A DNA stretch of 64,000 bases, taken from positions 62,001 to 126,000 of the forward strand of contig NZ_AULJ01000008.1 of NCBI RefSeq assembly GCF_000425225.1, given 5' to 3'. The position numbers and the translations under genes were made by a program. The notes under the pieces are model-generated. The model saw only the letters and a list, made by a program, of their open reading frames with translations. It did not search any database and had not been told where the DNA came from. Below are positions 6,552 through 60,319 of this stretch, in pieces (position 1 is the first letter of the stretch; each line of letters starts with the position of its first letter). The stretch is from Pontibacillus marinus BH030004 = DSM 16465 (lineage in GTDB: Bacteria > Bacillota > Bacilli > Bacillales > BH030062).

Positions 6552-8278
<1,727 letters not shown>

Positions 8279-8288
8279 AAGGTAGGCA

Positions 8289-9332
8289 GTGAAGATGAAA
8301 TTATTCGGTAGGGAATGGACGAAAAGAGAACTATTATCACGGGTTGGTAATATTGCTCAGATCGGCGGGGTTAAACGGTTAACTTACAGTGAAGGGAAAG
8401 CCGCTGGTGTAGAAATTATAGAAGTTCGTACTGGTGCAGGTTTGACTTTTCATATTTCTCCTACACTTGGGTTTGATATTACCTTCGCTGAATACAATGG
8501 GGTACCGCTAACTTGGCAATCTCCAAATGGGATAGTAAATCCATTTTTTTACCAACCCAATGGAACAGAGTGGCTGAAAACGGCATCTGGTGGAATGTTA
8601 ATGACATGTGGTTTATTACAAGTTGGATCTCCTTGTGAAGATAATGAAGAACAGCTTGGTTTGCATGGGGAAATCCATCACACACCAGCTAAGAATGTAT
8701 CAGCTACTGCCTATTGGGATGAGGATGACTATATTATATCAGCATCTGGGGTGGTGGAAGAAACATCTATTTTTGGTTCATTCTTACAATTGAGAAGAGA
8801 AATAAAATGTTATTTAGGTGAAAATCGAATAATGATCAATGACGTAGTAGAGAACATTGGATTTGAAGAAGCTCCACATATGATTTTATATCATTTTAAT
8901 TTGGGTTTTCCTTTTATAACGAGCGATACAAAGTTGGATTTTCCATCCCAAAAAGTTGTCGCAAGAAATGAGCATGTGGCTATTGAGAATTATGATAAAT
9001 GGAATATACCGCAAAAGGATTATGAAGAAAGAGTGTATTATCATGAGAATTTGAAGGTTGATGAGAATGATCAAGCGAAAGTGACTATGGAGAACCCTGT
9101 ATTCCTAAGTGATAAAAGAAATCTAGCACTTGAAATATCATGGAATACTAGAAATCTACCTAATTTAATTCAATGGAAAATGTTACAAGAAGGGATATAT
9201 GTATTGGGGGTTGAACCTTCCAATTGTCATGTCGAAGGCAGATCTGTCGAAAGAGAAAAAGGTACACTTTCCTACCTGGCCCCTGGGGAGGAAAAGCATT
9301 ATTATTTGGTGGTTAATCTGAATACTAACTAA
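8289..9332 (+). CDS. DUF4432 aldose-epimerase-like protein
   Basis: A 347-residue protein with a galactose-mutarotase-type beta-supersandwich signature: LTFHISPTLGFDITFAEYNG early on, LGLHGEIHHTPAK near residue 120 and a histidine-containing ILYHFNLGFPF near residue 200. It fits the DUF4432 family, which is found in sugar operons and has no firmly assigned reaction. GTG at 8289 has AAGG six to seven bases upstream; ATG at 8295 is an alternative start. It is the last gene of the tight block; the next gene starts 122 bases downstream. Anomer interconversion of the pathway sugar is the likely role (inference). Confidence 0.75.
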   Translation: MKMKLFGREWTKRELLSRVGNIAQIGGVKRLTYSEGKAAGVEIIEVRTGAGLTFHISPTLGFDITFAEYNGVPLTWQSPNGIVNPFFYQPNGTEWLKTASGGMLMTCGLLQVGSPCEDNEEQLGLHGEIHHTPAKNVSATAYWDEDDYIISASGVVEETSIFGSFLQLRREIKCYLGENRIMINDVVENIGFEEAPHMILYHFNLGFPFITSDTKLDFPSQKVVARNEHVAIENYDKWNIPQKDYEERVYYHENLKVDENDQAKVTMENPVFLSDKRNLALEISWNTRNLPNLIQWKMLQEGIYVLGVEPSNCHVEGRSVEREKGTLSYLAPGEEKHYYLVVNLNTN

Positions 9333-9454
9333 CAATTCACCCATATAATGTAAAAGTATTGAGGAATAGCACGATCAGTATAATTACCATCGAAGAAAAA
9401 ACTCTTACCTATGTTCACAATGTGATGATATTAATTTGTAAGGGTGAGTGAAAA

Positions 9455-10639
9455 GTGTCTAATATATTACTAAAAAATGCAAAAATACATACCGGAGAAG
9501 AAAGTATTGACAAAGCATCCATTTGGATAACGGATGAGTTTATAAATGAGATTGGGGATAATGAAGCCTTTCAAAATATATTATTTGATCGAGTTATTGA
9601 TTGTGAAGACCAAGGCTGGGTGCTCCCGGGGATGATAGATCTCCATATTCATGGAACAAATAATGCAGATATAATGGATGGTACACAGGAAGCATTAGAA
9701 ACAATGTCAAAAGCACTGCCAAAAGAGGGGACAACTTCTTATTTAGCGACAACATTAACTCATGCAGAAGGTACTATTGAAAATGCTTTAAAAAATGTCC
9801 GGGATTTTATGCTTACTAGTAATTCTAATGGTGCTGAAGTTATTGGTGTTCATTTGGAAGGTCCATTTCTTAATATAGAAAAACGGGGTGCACAATTAGA
9901 AGAGTATATCCAAAAACCAAATATCGAATTATTTAATAAATGGTTTCAGTTATCGGGGAAATCTATTCAATTAGTAACTATGGCACCAGAAGAAGATGAA
10001 AATTATAAACTCGTCAATCATTTGAAAGAACTTGGAATCATTGTTTCGATAGGGCATACGAATTGTACATATAATCAAGCAAGAGAATCTATAAATAATG
10101 GAATAACACATGCTACACATCTATTTAATGGGATGTCTGGCATTCACCACCGCGATGTGGGTACTGCAGGTGCAGCTCTTTTATCTAATCAAGTGTTTGC
10201 TGAAATGATTTTGGATGGTTATCATCTTACGCCTGAAATAGCAGATCTGACCTATCGATTAAAAGGTCCTGATCACATAATCTTAGTAACTGATTCTATA
10301 AGAGCTAAATTTCTTGATGAAGGTTCATATGATATCGGAGGTCAAGTTGTCACTGTTATAGATAATAAAGTAATAAATGAAGAGGGTAAACTTTCAGGAA
10401 GTGTTCTGAAGATGAGTAAAGCACGCAAAAATTTTATGAAATGGATAGATAATGATATCTCAATTGTAACAAAAATTACTTCAACTAATCCTGCTAAACA
10501 TATAGGAGTTTATGGACGAAAAGGATCCTTACATACCGGGAAGGATGCTGATATTATTCTAGTTAATCATGAAGGAGAGATAATTCTTACTATTTGTAGA
10601 GGGAAGATTGTTTATGATGCTATTCAAAAAATACGGTAA
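9455..10639 (+). CDS. nagA: N-acetylglucosamine-6-phosphate deacetylase
   Basis: A 394-residue amidohydrolase-fold enzyme that deacetylates GlcNAc-6-P to glucosamine-6-P. Visible motifs are DLHIHGTNNADIMDG (metal and fold entry, near residue 64), the NagA hallmark EGPFLNIEKRGAQ (near residue 133), HTNCTYNQA, THLFNGMSG and the catalytic aspartate in LVTDSIRA (near residue 280). GTG start at 9455 is preceded by AAGGGTGAG. Combined with an alpha-mannosidase it suggests that a mannose- and GlcNAc-containing glycan is consumed. No nagB or PTS for GlcNAc lies in this window. Confidence 0.9.
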   Translation: MSNILLKNAKIHTGEESIDKASIWITDEFINEIGDNEAFQNILFDRVIDCEDQGWVLPGMIDLHIHGTNNADIMDGTQEALETMSKALPKEGTTSYLATTLTHAEGTIENALKNVRDFMLTSNSNGAEVIGVHLEGPFLNIEKRGAQLEEYIQKPNIELFNKWFQLSGKSIQLVTMAPEEDENYKLVNHLKELGIIVSIGHTNCTYNQARESINNGITHATHLFNGMSGIHHRDVGTAGAALLSNQVFAEMILDGYHLTPEIADLTYRLKGPDHIILVTDSIRAKFLDEGSYDIGGQVVTVIDNKVINEEGKLSGSVLKMSKARKNFMKWIDNDISIVTKITSTNPAKHIGVYGRKGSLHTGKDADIILVNHEGEIILTICRGKIVYDAIQKIR

Positions 10640-42944: not shown

Positions 42945-43283
42945 CACATCCAGCTCCAGCGCCCAGCAACTAGTATGCTTGGGCCCACACGACGTGGGTC
43001 AGATCGACGTTGTCACAGGACGTGACGGTTTTAGTCGATCATTCTTTCTCCGTAAGATAAGTCAACATCGAATCGCTATGCTCTTCGTGTTTCCTTTACA
43101 CGTTTAGTGATATGAAATTTTAACAATGAAGAAATTCGACGTTGTTAAAATTTCTAGGTTAAAGTACCACGGCAACTAAGCTTCTGTCTGAGCCTGTCGG
43201 CTTGCCAATCAGCAAGTTTAGTTAATCTTACTGCGGCTCAGTCCAGCATATACGTTGCTACCCGGGCGCTTACGCTTTTGCAT
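42945..43283. repeat. About 335-base interspersed element with imperfect inverted ends
   Basis: It begins near CACATCCAGCTCCAGCGCCC and ends near CCGGGCGCTTACGCTTTTGC. The ends are partly complementary (AGCGCCCAGCAAC versus GTTGCTACCCGGGCGCT). The CCAGCTCCAGCGCC and GGGCGCTTNCGCTTTTG edges resemble a non-coding element I recall as frequent in Bacillaceae genomes. No coding frame. It lies between the two-component operon and the transporter operon. Confidence 0.5.
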
Positions 43284-53539: not shown

Positions 53540-55495
53540 TTATTTAACTTCTTCCAACAACTCATATGCTTCTTCTTTAGTCTCAACGTTCAACAACTTT
53601 TCACGATACTCTTCATCCATCAACTGGCGAGATAACATCTGAAGAATCTTCAGGTGTTGGTCACCTTCGCTATCTTTCGGTACTGCGATCATAAAGATGA
53701 GTTTTGCAGATGTGCCATCGAAGCTATACCAGTCGACTCCGTCTTTTTTACGTCCGAAGACAACACTTGGTTTGGTAACGGTGTTTGATTTTCCGTGTGG
53801 GATGGCGATGTTCATGCCGATTCCTGTTGTGCTTTCTGCTTCGCGAGCTAGGATGGTTTGTTTGAATTCATCTTTTGATTGGATCGAACCATTTTGCTCT
53901 AGTTGATCTACCATGTGGTCAATTACGTCATCTCTTGTGTTTCCTTCTACATCAATGTCAATCAAGTTCATATTTGTGAGGTCTACAAGTTTTTCAGACT
54001 CTTCTGCTAGTGTTTTTTCTTCCTCAACAGGAGCCTCAGGTTGCTTTTCTGCGACAGGTTGTTCAGCCTGAGTTTCTTCAGTAGATGAAACTGTTGCTTC
54101 TGTTTCTACATCTTTTTTCAATAAGTTCGCAACCGTTGCAGTTACTAGAGAACCAGCGATAATTGCGATAAAGAACATAAATACGTTATCTACTGCGCCA
54201 AGTACAGCAACAATTGGACCGCCGTGTGCAACACGATCGCCTACGCTACCTAACATTGCAATAACGGCACCGACCATAGCACCTGCCATGTTACTTGGGA
54301 TTACGCGTAATGGGTCTTGCGCTGCGAATGGGATGGCACCTTCCGTGATACCGAATAGTCCCATTGTGAATGAAGCTTTTCCTGTTTCGCGCTCGGATGA
54401 TTGATATTTCTTTTTTTTCATAAATGTTGCAAGTCCCATTCCGATTGGAGGGATTGCGATTGCTGCTGCAATGGGTCCCATGATTTCGTAGTTACCTTCA
54501 CCGATCATAGCGGAACCGAATAGGAATGCTACTTTGTTTACAGGTCCGCCCATGTCAAAGGAGATCATGGCGCCTAAAATCAATGCTAGTAAAATAGAGC
54601 TTGTACCCTGCATGCCTTCTAACCAGCCTGTTAAGCTCGTGAATACCTGTGCAATCGGAGCACCTAGGAATAGTACGAAAATAAGTCCTACAGCAAGGGA
54701 TGCTAGTACAGGGATCACGATAATAGGCATGATCGGTTGTACAGCTTTTGGTACCTTCAAGTTCTTAATCCATAGTGCAATGTAACCAGCTAGGAAACCA
54801 GCGATAATACCGCCAAGGAAGCCTGCGCCAGCTTCACTTCCATAAAGTTCACCGTGATTGGCAATGTAACCACCCACCATACCAGGGGCTAGTCCAGGAC
54901 GATCAGCAATACTGTATGCAATAAATCCTGCTAAAATTGGAACCATGAATGAGAACGATGCTGCACCAATGCTTTCGATGGTTTTCCAAAATGAATCATC
55001 CGGTATGACGATTCCGCTTGGTGTTTTGTCGCCACCGATTGTTAGGGCGATGGCAATAAGTAGACCACCAATAACGATGAACGGAATCATGTAGGAAACG
55101 CCGTTCATTAAGTGACGGTAAATCGGGTTTTGCTTATCTTTCTTTTGACCGGAATCAGAGGAGGCTTCATTCCCGTTTCCTTGATAAATGGCTGCCTCTT
55201 TATTTCGAATTTGATTGATTAATTTTTCGGGTGAGTTGATCCCTTCTTGAACCCCAACAGCTACCATTCTTTTACCGTTGAAGCGGCTTTTCTCAACAGT
55301 TTTATCAGCTGCAATAATGACGCCATCAGCTTCACGAATATCTTGTTCTGAAAATTCGTTTTCAACACCAATGGAGCCTTGCGTTTCTACTTTAATCTCT
55401 ACACCTAATTTTTCGGCGGCTTTTTGTAGGTTCTCAGCTGCCATGTAGGTGTGTGCGATACCATTTGGACATGATGTAATCGCTAACAGTTTCAT
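53540..55495 (-). CDS. manP: PTS mannose/fructose-type EIIBCA transporter (ManP-like)
   Basis: A 651-residue fused PTS permease. Domain order is B-C-A: EIIB at the N terminus (ITSCPNGIAHTYMAAENLQ, C9), EIIC with about 8-10 membrane segments (about 125-455), a Gln/Glu-rich linker, and EIIA at the end (MNIAIPHGKSNTV, active histidine). B. subtilis FruA is A-B-C, whereas ManP is B-C-A and about 650 residues, so mannose is the best guess. GAAGGAGG precedes the ATG. A near-perfect cre lies in its leader and a ManR-like gene lies just upstream on the same strand. manA is not in the window. Confidence 0.82.
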   Translation of the reverse strand: MKLLAITSCPNGIAHTYMAAENLQKAAEKLGVEIKVETQGSIGVENEFSEQDIREADGVIIAADKTVEKSRFNGKRMVAVGVQEGINSPEKLINQIRNKEAAIYQGNGNEASSDSGQKKDKQNPIYRHLMNGVSYMIPFIVIGGLLIAIALTIGGDKTPSGIVIPDDSFWKTIESIGAASFSFMVPILAGFIAYSIADRPGLAPGMVGGYIANHGELYGSEAGAGFLGGIIAGFLAGYIALWIKNLKVPKAVQPIMPIIVIPVLASLAVGLIFVLFLGAPIAQVFTSLTGWLEGMQGTSSILLALILGAMISFDMGGPVNKVAFLFGSAMIGEGNYEIMGPIAAAIAIPPIGMGLATFMKKKKYQSSERETGKASFTMGLFGITEGAIPFAAQDPLRVIPSNMAGAMVGAVIAMLGSVGDRVAHGGPIVAVLGAVDNVFMFFIAIIAGSLVTATVANLLKKDVETEATVSSTEETQAEQPVAEKQPEAPVEEEKTLAEESEKLVDLTNMNLIDIDVEGNTRDDVIDHMVDQLEQNGSIQSKDEFKQTILAREAESTTGIGMNIAIPHGKSNTVTKPSVVFGRKKDGVDWYSFDGTSAKLIFMIAVPKDSEGDQHLKILQMLSRQLMDEEYREKLLNVETKEEAYELLEEVK

Positions 55496-57597: not shown

Positions 57598-57647
57598 GTG
57601 CCTGACCCCCGGTGCGGTGATGCGGTAACGCGGTGGGGGTCAGGCAC
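57598..57647. repeat. REP-a palindrome
   Basis: GTGCCTGACCCCCGGTGCGG... / ...GGTGGGGGTCAGGCAC, 50 bases, followed by a short tandem GCACCGTGCAAGGCACCGTGC. Confidence 0.85.
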
Positions 57648-57890: not shown

Positions 57891-58844
57891 TCATGATGCT
57901 TGATGGGGAGATACTTTATAAAGCTGATTTCCTAAATATCTAGCTAATTCAAGCATTCCATGGATATTCGCTTCTTGCTCAGCGTCCGTATTATAATTGG
58001 TATTCGTGTTAACATCATATGTGTACACTTGGCCATGCTGATCGTGAATCGCTTCAATGCCTGCTACTTCGATGGAATTGGCATATAGTAATTGTTCATA
58101 GTATTCGATGATCGGGTCACGATATTCAGTTAAGATCTCAAACTTCGCTCCACCTTCTGACTCTGCTCCAGTTGGGCAGTATTGATCTTCAATGGAACAA
58201 GCATCTGCAGGGCAGAGTTCGAAGCCTTCAGATGTGTCTACTTTTACTGCATAAAGGAACTTTCCACCCACAAATTCATGACGGATAATATAAGGTTTTG
58301 GTGCATCAATATATTGCTGTACTAAAGTAATACCATCTACAGGTTCCTCGAAATTCGCACCATATACATATTCCTCAAGAGCTTGAATAGAGTGAAAGAG
58401 CTGAACACCTTGACCTTTACCAGCACGATTATGTTTTGTAATAAAAGGGGAGAGGTTTAACTGCTTCGCTGCGCTTACAATGTCATCTTTTCCTAATGCT
58501 ACTAGAGTTTTAGGTGTTGTAACCCCGTTTTGATTTAAGCTCATATATTGCTCCACTTTGCTTAATTCCAAACTAAGTGCACGACTGCCGTTAACCACGG
58601 TTCTACCATGACGCTCCAGCCATGAAAGGACCGCTTTTGTAAATTCAGGTGCAAAACGGTGATTCCTTGTGTGTGAGGATGCACTCATTCGGTTATAAAA
58701 GACTCCTTGAGGTGGCTCCTTGGTTAAATCAATGGATCCATGATCGAGGTGCCAGCATTCGTAGGGAAGGTGCAACTCTTCTAAACGTTTCGTTAGGTGA
58801 GCGGTCCATTCTTCGTTTTCGTGTAATATATAAATTTTGCTCAT
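57891..58844 (-). CDS. RimK-like ATP-grasp enzyme
   Basis: A 317-residue ATP-grasp protein. The ATP-binding core includes PFITKHNRAGKGQGVQLF (near residues 134-152), then VQQYIDAPKPYIIRHEFVGG and the metal-binding end VYTYDVNTNTNYN. Closest in pattern to RimK-type carboxylate-amine ligases (peptide or glutamate ligation). The start overlaps the flavin oxidoreductase stop by four bases (ATGA), so they are translationally coupled and share a SAM riboswitch. An ATP-grasp ligase in a sulfur-regulated operon suggests formation or processing of a sulfur-containing amide or peptide (inference). Substrate unknown. Confidence 0.83.
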   Translation of the reverse strand: MSKIYILHENEEWTAHLTKRLEELHLPYECWHLDHGSIDLTKEPPQGVFYNRMSASSHTRNHRFAPEFTKAVLSWLERHGRTVVNGSRALSLELSKVEQYMSLNQNGVTTPKTLVALGKDDIVSAAKQLNLSPFITKHNRAGKGQGVQLFHSIQALEEYVYGANFEEPVDGITLVQQYIDAPKPYIIRHEFVGGKFLYAVKVDTSEGFELCPADACSIEDQYCPTGAESEGGAKFEILTEYRDPIIEYYEQLLYANSIEVAGIEAIHDQHGQVYTYDVNTNTNYNTDAEQEANIHGMLELARYLGNQLYKVSPHQAS

Positions 58845-59905
58845 GTTTGTAGCTCCTTTTTATGTGTTCGTTTTGCTTCAACTAAAGGCATGACCTTTTT
58901 ACTGAAGCGTTCCATTTCTTCTAATTGAGGTGAGCATTGTAGTAAAAGAAGGTCAACTCCAGCTTCTTCAAACTCTAAAATGCGTTCCGCGATTTGTTCG
59001 GGTGTACCAATGAGCTCAGGGCGTAATCCTCGATTTGAAACAGAGTAATCTAAAAGCTTCACTTGTTGTTCAAGCTGAGACTTGTTGGTGAAGTCTTGAT
59101 AACCAGCATAAGCGCTCGATTCTTTTACCTGTGTAATCCGGTTCAGCTCATCAAAAGCTTTCTGTTCTGTATCGCGGCAAATAACATAGGCTGCCATGCC
59201 GAATGATTGAAATGGAGGTTTACCGGCTTCTTTCCGTCTGCTCTTCATATCTTCAATTTTTGTTTGGACCTCTTCAACGGTGCCGCCATGCATGACATAA
59301 GCGTCACAATGATCAACAATTGTCTGTTTTCCGCGAGGGCTTTCTCCGCCAGCATATAGCTTCGGATTTGGTTTTTGTACCGGTTTAGGGTGGAGATGGG
59401 TGTCCTGAACCTCGTAAAACTTACCTTCATAACTGTAGGTCTCGTTTTCCTCAGCCCATAGGCCTTTTACAACTTCTAAAAATTCATCGGTTCTGTCATA
59501 TCGCTCATCATGCGCCGTGAATGCTCCGCCATATTGTTTCGCTTCTTCTCCCCACCAGGCTGACACGACATTTAAGGTGAAGCGGCCACCTGAAATGTGA
59601 TCAATGTTAGAAGCCATCTTTGCTGTAATGGCTGGGTTATGAAAGTTAGGGCGAACCGCTGCCATGATCTCGGTTGTCTCGGTCACCGCTGCTAGGCCAG
59701 CTGCCGTTGTCCAGGCTTCTAGAGAGTCATGTTCTGGTCCCTTAATATCATTTAAATAAAGCTCTGCGATTAAAGTCGTATCAAAACCTAACTGTTCTCC
59801 TTGCTGGATGACCTTTTTTGCGTATTCAAATGTGGTAGGCATTCCTTCATCCTCTACGTTCCGTAACCAACCTCCAAAAATCGGTAGCCAATAGCCATAT
59901 CTCAC
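58841..59905 (-). CDS. LLM-class FMNH2-dependent monooxygenase (SsuD/SfnG-like)
   Basis: A 354-residue luciferase-like TIM barrel. Motifs include RYGYWLPIFGGWLRNVEDEG at the start, HNPAITAKMASNIDHISGGR (flavin-site region, near 105), NVVSAWWGEEAKQYG and PKLYAGGESPRGKQ. The family includes alkanesulfonate (SsuD) and dimethylsulfone (SfnG) monooxygenases. GTG 59905 is the start, nine bases after AAGGAG; the longer frame from 59941 lacks a site. The SAM riboswitch in its leader supports a role in obtaining sulfur from organosulfur compounds. No flavin reductase or ABC transporter is adjacent. Confidence 0.85.
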   Translation of the reverse strand: MRYGYWLPIFGGWLRNVEDEGMPTTFEYAKKVIQQGEQLGFDTTLIAELYLNDIKGPEHDSLEAWTTAAGLAAVTETTEIMAAVRPNFHNPAITAKMASNIDHISGGRFTLNVVSAWWGEEAKQYGGAFTAHDERYDRTDEFLEVVKGLWAEENETYSYEGKFYEVQDTHLHPKPVQKPNPKLYAGGESPRGKQTIVDHCDAYVMHGGTVEEVQTKIEDMKSRRKEAGKPPFQSFGMAAYVICRDTEQKAFDELNRITQVKESSAYAGYQDFTNKSQLEQQVKLLDYSVSNRGLRPELIGTPEQIAERILEFEEAGVDLLLLQCSPQLEEMERFSKKVMPLVEAKRTHKKELQT

Positions 59906-59996
59906 ATCATTCCACTCCTTCATTGTTCTTATAGTAATCATATGAACTTACTTGGTTTAATGGTGCTACTAATTAACATTTATAGCTTTAATATAT

Positions 59997-60040
59997 AAAA
60001 AATCCCCTCTTCAAGTCTGGCAGACAAGAAGAGGGGATTT
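59997..60040 (-). terminator. Rho-independent terminator of the SAM riboswitch
   Basis: On the minus strand AAATCCCCTCTTC / GAAGAGGGGATTT, 13 base pairs, followed by T6. It lies right after the S-box aptamer and upstream of the monooxygenase, so it is the expression platform. Confidence 0.92.
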
Positions 60041-60055
60041 GGTATAAGGCTATCC

Positions 60056-60166
60056 CACACTTCTCATCTGCCAGGACACTGCCTGTTGGAATTGGCACGG
60101 TATTCACGTGGAACCCGTTGCCGAGGTTTCAAAGGGCCTTTCCCTCCACCTCTCTGGATAAGAAGA
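60056..60166 (-). promoter_or_regulatory. SAM-I (S-box) riboswitch aptamer
   Basis: Read on the minus strand, the conserved S-box blocks occur in order: CTTATCCAGAGAGGTGGAGG, GGCCCTTTGAAACC, CGGCAAC, GTGCCAATTCC and AGATGAGAAG, with pairing P1 between the ends. SAM binding favours the downstream terminator and shuts off expression. It controls the monooxygenase/ATP-grasp operon. Confidence 0.95.
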
Positions 60167-60194
60167 TTGAATTTTTTGATATATTGTAAATGTA

Positions 60195-60223
60195 ATCATA
60201 CACGGCGTGGGAGGAGGTGTCAA
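60195..60223 (-). promoter_or_regulatory. Sigma-A promoter of the SAM-riboswitch operon
   Basis: Minus strand TTGACA (60223-60218), 17-base spacer, TATGAT (60200-60195). Transcription would start near 60188, about 20 bases before the aptamer. The -35 abuts the end of a REP-b. Confidence 0.85.
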
Positions 60224-60269: not shown

Positions 60270-60319
60270 GTGCCTGACCCCCGCCGCTTTACAGCATTAC
60301 CGCGGTGGGGGTCAGGCAC
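60270..60319. repeat. REP-a palindrome
   Basis: GTGCCTGACCCCCGCCGC... / ...GCGGTGGGGGTCAGGCAC, 50 bases, 12 bases past the GH3 gene stop. Confidence 0.9.

Follow-up and report, generated by a model that had tools for sequence, protein, structure and literature searches.

In Bacillus subtilis, S-alkylcysteines are N-acetylated, cleaved by a luciferase-like monooxygenase (LLM) and then deacetylated, according to the accessible parts of three reports (PMC12757645, PMC9706529, PMC10863075). In these parts, the authors of the first liken the N-acetylation to a chemist's protecting group (PMC12757645), and the third describes CmoJ as a homologue of YxeK and DszA (PMC10863075). Here we analyze a two-gene operon of Pontibacillus marinus BH030004 = DSM 16465 (assembly GCF_000425225.1), in which an S-adenosylmethionine (SAM) riboswitch precedes the genes for an LLM flavin monooxygenase and a RimK/LysX-type ATP-grasp ligase. 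The operon lies on the minus strand of contig NZ_AULJ01000008.1, within positions 62,001-126,000, a stretch of 64,000 nucleotides that we call the window and in whose numbering coordinates are given. YxeK and CmoJ belong to the NtaA/DmoA branch of LLM enzymes (TIGR03860), and the ATP-grasp enzymes LysX and ArgX cap amino acids at their amino group by ligating them to LysW.

Putting the acetyl protection of B. subtilis together with the amino-group capping by LysX and ArgX, we propose that the operon is a SAM-riboswitch-controlled organosulfur salvage unit, in which the ligase caps the substrate for a carbon-sulfur (C-S) monooxygenase. We advance this tentatively, as the best of the explanations considered and a real possibility that falls short of being probable. 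The parts are each of a known kind; their combination, its conservation and the exchange of the ligase are not described in the open-licence literature as far as we searched it, and earlier surveys of the methionine regulon might mention the pair.

Leader and proteins of the operon

The unit extends from a −35 box at 60223 to the stop codon of the ligase gene at 57891, the range given in an earlier note on this DNA. The promoter described there, TTGACA-N17-TATGAT, lies at 60223-60195 (−35 box, 60223-60218; −10 box, 60200-60195) and agrees with 11 of 12 consensus bases. Since a promoter scan returned 3 promoter-like sites overall, fewer than the mean of 6.0 in shuffled sequences, the argument for this promoter rests on its position, 30 nucleotides ahead of the aptamer, and not on the count. 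The aptamer, at 60061-60164, matches the SAM-I (S-box) family RF00162 over its full length (1-108 of 108) with 88.7 bits against a gathering threshold of 44.4 (E = 9.4e-20), a covariance score that bears out the S-box leader claimed earlier.

In the usual S-box layout, bound SAM keeps helix P1 in place and the terminator forms. On the 3' side of P1 we found an intrinsic terminator (60000-60040), whose perfect 13-bp stem (60040-60028 with 60012-60000) is followed by a T-rich tail, as the note had described, together with a competing antiterminator (60019-60072), in which the 3' strand of P1, 60072-60060, pairs with 60031-60019 at 13 of 13 positions. Because it has bases in common with both, the antiterminator is mutually exclusive with P1 and with the terminator. 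As judged from these pairings, the leader can adopt either P1 with the terminator or an antiterminator built on the 3' strand of P1, and SAM binding would favor the terminator; both genes would accordingly be expressed when SAM is scarce. Folding of the leader is far stronger than that of shuffled sequences (z = −5.79). A simple terminator scan, confined to loops of 3-8, missed the terminator.

The first gene (58841-59905, minus strand) encodes an LLM flavin monooxygenase that resembles SfnG and SsuD. Because most of its orthologues start with MRYG or MKYG and a ribosome-binding site, AAGGAG, precedes the GTG at 59905, this codon is the likely start, rather than the ATG at 59941 to which the longest open reading frame (ORF) reaches. 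The protein matches Bac_luciferase (PF00296) with 209.1 bits against a cutoff of 27.9, as expected of the LLM family. We rejected orthology with the dimethylsulfone monooxygenase SfnG (TIGR04021, 260.3 bits, equivalog cutoff 382.95) and with the alkanesulfonate monooxygenase SsuD (TIGR03565, 191.2 bits, equivalog cutoff 518.2), and the protein also stays below the cutoff of the NtaA/DmoA branch (131.9 bits versus 279.7). Its closest solved relatives are 3rao (580 bits), deposited as a putative luciferase-like monooxygenase, 8vw6 (390 bits) and SfnG 8t0u (168 bits). Sequence and models place the monooxygenase among the two-component LLM enzymes, the superfamily that includes C-S-cleaving members, with SfnG and SsuD as its nearest models. 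The operon contains no reductase, and matches to the SsuE model elsewhere in the genome score 43.6 and 38.8 bits, below the cutoff of 164. No NtaA/DmoA enzyme above the cutoff was found in the genome.

The ligase gene (57891-58844, minus strand; 317 residues) shares four bases, the ATGA at 58841-58844, with the monooxygenase gene, an overlap that had been noted before. Its product matches the RimK-type ATP-grasp family PF08443 weakly (28.9 bits, cutoff 21), which, with the PF00296 match of its neighbor, agrees with the protein identities assigned in the note. Assignment as a RimK S6 ligase or as LysX was rejected, since the scores of 64.9 bits with TIGR00768 (rimK_fam) and 43.3 bits with LysX_arch lie below the respective cutoffs of 143.4 and 275.6. 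An AlphaFold2 model of the ligase, built from 8 input sequences with a mean pLDDT (predicted local distance difference test) of 83, was closest in fold to ArgX with LysW and to RimK with RpsF. The best match was ArgX 3vpb (Z 24.8, root-mean-square deviation 2.7, 273 residues aligned), the title of which confirms a complex with LysW and Glu; LysX (Z 24.6) and RimK (Z 24.0) followed, and the matches ranged from Z 24.8 to 23.5, with about 273 residues aligned and 17-19% identity. This comparison indicates that the ligase has an ATP-grasp fold nearest those of ArgX, LysX and RimK.

Conservation of residues was scored over 93 ligase sequences, namely the clustered ORFs of 290-345 residues (others were dropped) and the proteins of the window, Pediococcus and Spirosoma. 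Lys96, Lys137, Glu264, Asp277 and Asn279 are each conserved at 1.00 and resemble the ATP and metal ligands of ATP-grasp enzymes, roles that we assume from familiar patterns rather than from a residue-level superposition. The loop 208-233 is poorly predicted, and its three cysteines, Cys211, Cys216 and Cys223, are each at least 97% conserved; the loop is possibly a metal or substrate site.

Conservation of the pair and exchange of its ligase

We surveyed 397 genomes of the order (handles beginning with G; fetched loci begin with L), accepting monooxygenase matches at E ≤ 1e-80 and ligase matches at E ≤ 0.001. The monooxygenase is present in 104 genomes, in 101 at 60% identity or more and in three at about 46%. 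The RimK-type ligase stands next to it on the same strand in 93 of the 101 genomes with a close orthologue (91 found by script; G201 and G302, whose fetched stretches were too short, by coordinates). In four of the remaining eight, a second type of ligase is adjacent, and in one (G231) the contig ends; the other three (G103, G168, G193) have neither type adjacent and carry the RimK-type ligase away from the monooxygenase (its position is not listed for G103).

Relatives were searched for S-boxes with a model built from the seven found in the P. marinus genome, and one was counted as directly upstream when it lay on the same strand, no more than 280 bases 5' of the point where the BLAST match to the first gene starts. 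An S-box was directly upstream in 90 of the 101 genomes. G030, beyond these 90, has an S-box, MetNPQ-like genes, the monooxygenase and the ligase in line; the other ten showed no S-box upstream within the fetched stretch, G179 having one elsewhere in it on the opposite strand. When eight loci of relatives were checked against Rfam, RF00162 was recovered in seven, all except that of Deinococcus deserti. Across the order, the gene pair is conserved as an operon. Neither of the outcomes that the earlier note named as refuting it was observed, since the pair is conserved and the leader scores as a SAM riboswitch. The S-box, the terminator switch, the overlap of the genes and this conservation rule out a reading of the unit as chance or artefact.

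The fetched loci were chosen to spread over families and are not a random sample. Outside the order but within the same class, Bacilli, 15 of them have both genes; four of them (L153, L162, L163, L168) show the reversed order, ligase then monooxygenase, and no S-box, as do two genomes inside the order (G121, G307). A draw of 249 genomes from the phylum yielded the monooxygenase (E ≤ 1e-80) in two, both of the same class as the window. The three genomes with a monooxygenase of about 46% identity belong to one genus, and their genes each have an S-box of their own directly upstream (L188, 4992-6011; L189, 5007-6026; L190); we take these proteins to form a separate S-box-controlled LLM subfamily.

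The second ligase, which we call type 2, has about 415 residues and follows the S-box and precedes the monooxygenase in G262, G324, G343 and G272, the last of which carries both ligase types. Two copies from Bacilli had no Pfam match. A homologue in D. deserti, 39-42% identical to the Bacilli copies, is annotated as a carboxylate-amine ligase and scores 23.9 bits (cutoff 19.8) with the carbamoyl-phosphate-synthase ATP-binding domain, and the weak NCBIfam matches of type 2 are to carbamoyl-phosphate-synthase-like and D-Ala-D-Ala ligase models, none of them of the RimK family. No BLAST similarity between the two ligases was seen at E = 1e-3. They differ in family, yet both would be ATP-grasp proteins, and their folds need not be unrelated. 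All four close relatives of type 2 in the 397 genomes (at least 58% identity) adjoin the monooxygenase; more distant relatives do not follow this pattern, comprising three at 40-41% (L242-L244) and those of 48 further genomes, most of which lack the monooxygenase (their flanks were not seen).

On two Deinococcus plasmids, monooxygenases 57-60% identical to that of the window lie directly behind ligase type 2. In D. peraridilitoris, an RF00162 match of 60.6 bits is found just upstream of this pair; in D. deserti there is no S-box at the unit, and genes annotated as D-cysteine desulfhydrase and Asp/Glu racemase stand in front. In all these units the same monooxygenase has a second, different ATP-grasp protein as its neighbor. 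A third variant occurs on a Spirosoma plasmid, where a distant RimK-type ligase (32% identity), two amino-acid permeases and an SsuD-like LLM enzyme stand in a row. We placed the ligase labels on a monooxygenase tree of 54 rows, from which ORFs outside 335-385 residues had been dropped and in which L156, a mispredicted ORF, has a very long branch. The tree implies three label changes and its bootstrap replicates imply two or three, while a single change is also possible; the number of recruitments of type 2 is not countable because the tree is poorly resolved.

Ligase-only loci, companion genes and genome surroundings

Among the fetched loci L067-L174, 52 have the ligase and no monooxygenase match, and three more (L073, L142, L161) have a partial match. 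An S-box lies directly upstream of the ligase alone in three of the 52 (L128, L135, L158). On a Pediococcus plasmid, as in L166 and L167, the gene before the ligase encodes a dicarboxylate/amino-acid symporter. Because of these loci, we conclude that the ligase has a role of its own, with a link to SAM in certain lineages and to amino-acid uptake in others. Control by another known riboswitch was considered for the 49 ligase-only loci without an S-box and set aside: the 22 of them run through Rfam showed no cis-regulatory RNA at the ligase, and the cobalamin riboswitch in L124 sits 2.5 kb away from it. In L070 (6957-8069), L071 and L072, of Evansella/Litchfieldia, the ligase is followed by DUF1806 (yojF-like) and bshB2, families that were tested on L070. 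A link of the ligase to bacillithiol was set aside, as these three related loci were the only ones to show it among those read.

The earlier note had remarked that neither a transporter nor a flavin reductase accompanies the pair. This is true of the window and does not extend to all relatives. In L091 and L106, MetY and the genes of an SsuABC-type importer come next in the operon, and behind a divergent S-box lie an SsuE-type flavin mononucleotide (FMN) reductase and an NtaA/DmoA-type monooxygenase; the latter two genes also occur in L109. Two reductase-like genes, of which the one tested is SsuE-type, lie behind a divergent S-box in L187. Further SsuABC-like genes were found in L077 and L156 (in L156 by clustering only), and MetNPQ-like genes in L079. 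In L112 an MsrA gene lies behind the monooxygenase, the sole MsrA in the loci that were searched with MsrA.

Acetyltransferases stand beside three of the type 2 units. In L182, the locus of G272, the genes at 7827-9600, for a PA4866/phosphinothricin-type acetyltransferase and an M20 hydrolase, are divergent from the S-box operon. L111 (8712-9206) and L185 (near 7726-8214), which come from a single genus, have an acetyltransferase of 48% identity immediately ahead of the S-box and on its strand. A search at E = 1e-12 gave no match in L112 or in the two Deinococcus loci. All of these acetyltransferases score below the NCBIfam cutoffs for arsinothricin and phosphinothricin. PA4866 is a methionine sulfoximine/sulfone acetyltransferase, and the presence of such genes beside type 2 units favors a methionine-sulfone-like substrate. 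The best solved relatives of the M20 hydrolase are HmrA (350 bits) and an Xaa-Arg dipeptidase (258 bits), which makes it a possible candidate for a deprotecting enzyme. The companion cases are few and mostly concern oxidised organosulfur compounds, methionine or amino acids; they hint at a substrate among the oxidised sulfur amino acids or the sulfonates.

In the window itself, the neighbors of the operon show no sign of sulfur metabolism: by reading, a beta-glucosidase-like gene lies upstream, whereas downstream there are a small ORF in convergent orientation and phosphotransferase-system-type genes. In the genome as a whole, 150 of 213 candidates scored gave the seven S-boxes, on contigs C4, C11, C22, C24 and C36 and none on C3; an SsuA-family protein above the cutoff lies on C3 within a set of ATP-binding-cassette transporter genes. 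The six S-boxes other than that of the operon precede a MetY-like gene, two MetN-like transporter genes, MsrA and MetK (MsrA and MetK were tested, the rest named by reading). Two of them (L004, L005) stand in tandem on C11, at 54748-55145, before a MetN-like transporter gene, likewise named by reading. A palindromic repeat with arms GTGCCTGACCCCC has 21 matches in the window at up to one mismatch, against 0.03 expected. Its copies at 57598-57647 and 60270-60319 flank the operon, and the −35 box is about 50 bases from one of them. The genome holds 126 exact copies (61 forward, 65 reverse), which, among the matches listed, are crowded on few contigs; the repeat looks like a short mobile or REP-like (repetitive extragenic palindromic) element. 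A Bacillaceae-1 RNA (RF01690, 74.3 bits) lies at 42984-43050 on the minus strand; to our knowledge this small RNA family has no known function.

Possible roles of the pair and comparison with known systems

If the ligase caps the substrate for the monooxygenase, it would spend ATP to join a second amino acid, or a small acid, to a sulfur amino acid or to an organosulfur compound that bears an amino or carboxy group. The monooxygenase, with reduced FMN (FMNH2) from a general flavin reductase, would then oxygenate the carbon adjoining the sulfur in the conjugate and set free sulfite, or else a sulfinate or thiol. The tag may be taken off by a general peptidase, and the sulfur, perhaps with the carbon skeleton, would pass to methionine and SAM. 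The substrate class would most likely be oxidised sulfur amino acids or sulfonate analogues, which we suggest with more reserve; methionine sulfone, homocysteate and cysteate are named because they fit the mixed sulfonate, methionine and acidic-amino-acid neighbors. A bolder form of the proposal, which we regard as rather unlikely, holds that ATP-dependent amide or isopeptide ligation is the protection and recognition step for an oxygenolytic C-S cleavage whose substrate is an oxidised sulfur amino acid, that two ATP-grasp families have been recruited to it, and that SAM gates it in two phyla. Cleavage of methionine sulfone or homocysteate would in that case give aspartate semialdehyde and methanesulfinate or sulfite, both of which would be usable for methionine.

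The earlier note had inferred an uncharacterised sulfur step shared by a ligase and a C-S monooxygenase, which might for instance make or open an amide of a sulfur compound. The exchange of the ligase beside the same monooxygenase, together with the S-boxes at the ligase alone, strengthens this idea. Several observations weigh against a capping role. The ligase is not confined to the unit: it occurs in 225 of the 397 genomes (a count that includes a few weak matches, such as G066, G118 and G353), compared with 104 for the monooxygenase, and must therefore serve some use without it; in L142 an intact ligase stands beside a mere monooxygenase fragment. Conversely, the genomes of L188-L190 showed no RimK-type ligase, and no type 2 match at E = 1e-30, which indicates that such S-box-controlled monooxygenases can do without either ligase. 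Outside the order, the S-box becomes rarer, being upstream in 3 of the 15 loci with both genes. The companion genes are restricted to single lineages and point to differing substrates, a sulfonate importer in one case and a methionine importer in another. No deprotecting enzyme recurs in the operons when gene clusters present in at least four loci are counted as recurrent, and the M20 hydrolase was seen beside the unit in one locus only, in divergent orientation. Finally, acetylation rather than ligation could be the capping step beside the three type 2 units with an acetyltransferase.

Many of these points suit the main rival, to which we give an appreciable but clearly minority chance: the two proteins would have separate functions and share only their regulation. 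The monooxygenase would remove sulfur from a sulfonate, a sulfone or a sulfur amino acid, either free or acetylated, and the ligase would produce some unrelated conjugate, of peptide or thiol type, that is useful at low methionine. The 52 monooxygenase-free loci, three with an S-box of their own, and the three S-box-controlled relatives of the monooxygenase without a ligase speak for this explanation; the SsuABC neighbors suit a free sulfonate, and the acetyltransferases beside three type 2 units could do the capping. Co-regulation leaves unexplained, however, why a different ATP-grasp ligase takes the same place in the operon in the four genomes without an adjacent RimK-type ligase, and why the two genes stay together in the six cases of reversed order, where no S-box is present to be shared.

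A further explanation, which we consider improbable, concerns methyl-sulfur volatiles and by-products such as dimethyl sulfone, dimethyl sulfide and 3-methylthiopropionate. The monooxygenase would yield methanethiol or methanesulfinate for MetY, and the ligase would activate a carboxylate, such as that of methylthiopropionate, as an amide. SfnG is indeed the nearest NCBIfam model, though the score is below its cutoff, and MetY behind the pair in L091 and L106, with the divergent NtaA/DmoA-type monooxygenase and SsuE-type reductase there and in L109, would fit such a route. These neighbors are, however, confined to a few genomes, the amino-acid transporters beside the ligase in Spirosoma, Pediococcus and two further genomes are left unexplained, and the accessible part of PMC8234197 names no ligase that goes with SfnG. 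In a last explanation, which we hold to be very improbable, the target of the ligase would be a protein or carrier, as S6 is for RimK and LysW for LysX and ArgX, and the monooxygenase would act on a carrier-bound or modified amino acid: the closest folds, ArgX with LysW and RimK with RpsF, speak for it, but no short-protein family recurred in at least four loci, among which ORFs below 60 residues were not listed and no LysW search was made.

Whichever role applies, a widespread unassigned ligase gains a testable setting: low SAM, sulfur salvage and a C-S monooxygenase partner. The swap of ATP-grasp families beside the same monooxygenase is also a type of evidence that can tie two reactions together without knowledge of the substrate. 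If the ligase does cap the substrate of the monooxygenase, the protect-cleave-deprotect problem that acetylation is known to solve would have a second chemical answer, and the SAM riboswitch regulon would gain a new pathway.

Of the known systems, the YxeK/ScmK and CmoO/CmoJ salvage routes of B. subtilis are alike in that, in the parts of the reports available, an LLM enzyme cleaves the C-S bond of an amino-acid derivative with a capped amino group for sulfur recovery (PMC9706529, PMC12757645, PMC10863075). They differ in that an acetyltransferase caps and a deacetylase uncaps, whereas the operon of the window has two genes, with the ATP-grasp ligase as the sole partner of the monooxygenase, and is controlled by a SAM riboswitch; some type 2 relatives have an acetyltransferase (L111, L182, L185) and once an M20 hydrolase (L182), in each case beside the operon and not in it. 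SfnG, MsuD and SsuD belong to the same superfamily and provide the closest models and characterised structures; the monooxygenase of the window is nevertheless below every equivalog cutoff, and the gene clusters covered in the accessible part of PMC8234197 include no ligase. With LysX, ArgX and RimK, the modeled ligase shares its fold over about 273 residues and, with PF08443, a match above the cutoff, but it falls below the TIGR00768 and LysX_arch cutoffs and has the low-confidence loop 208-233 with its three conserved cysteines. The leader, with RF00162 and a terminator switch, resembles those of the SAM-I regulon; to the extent covered by the terms searched, the main text of PMC3766115 does not name this monooxygenase and ligase.

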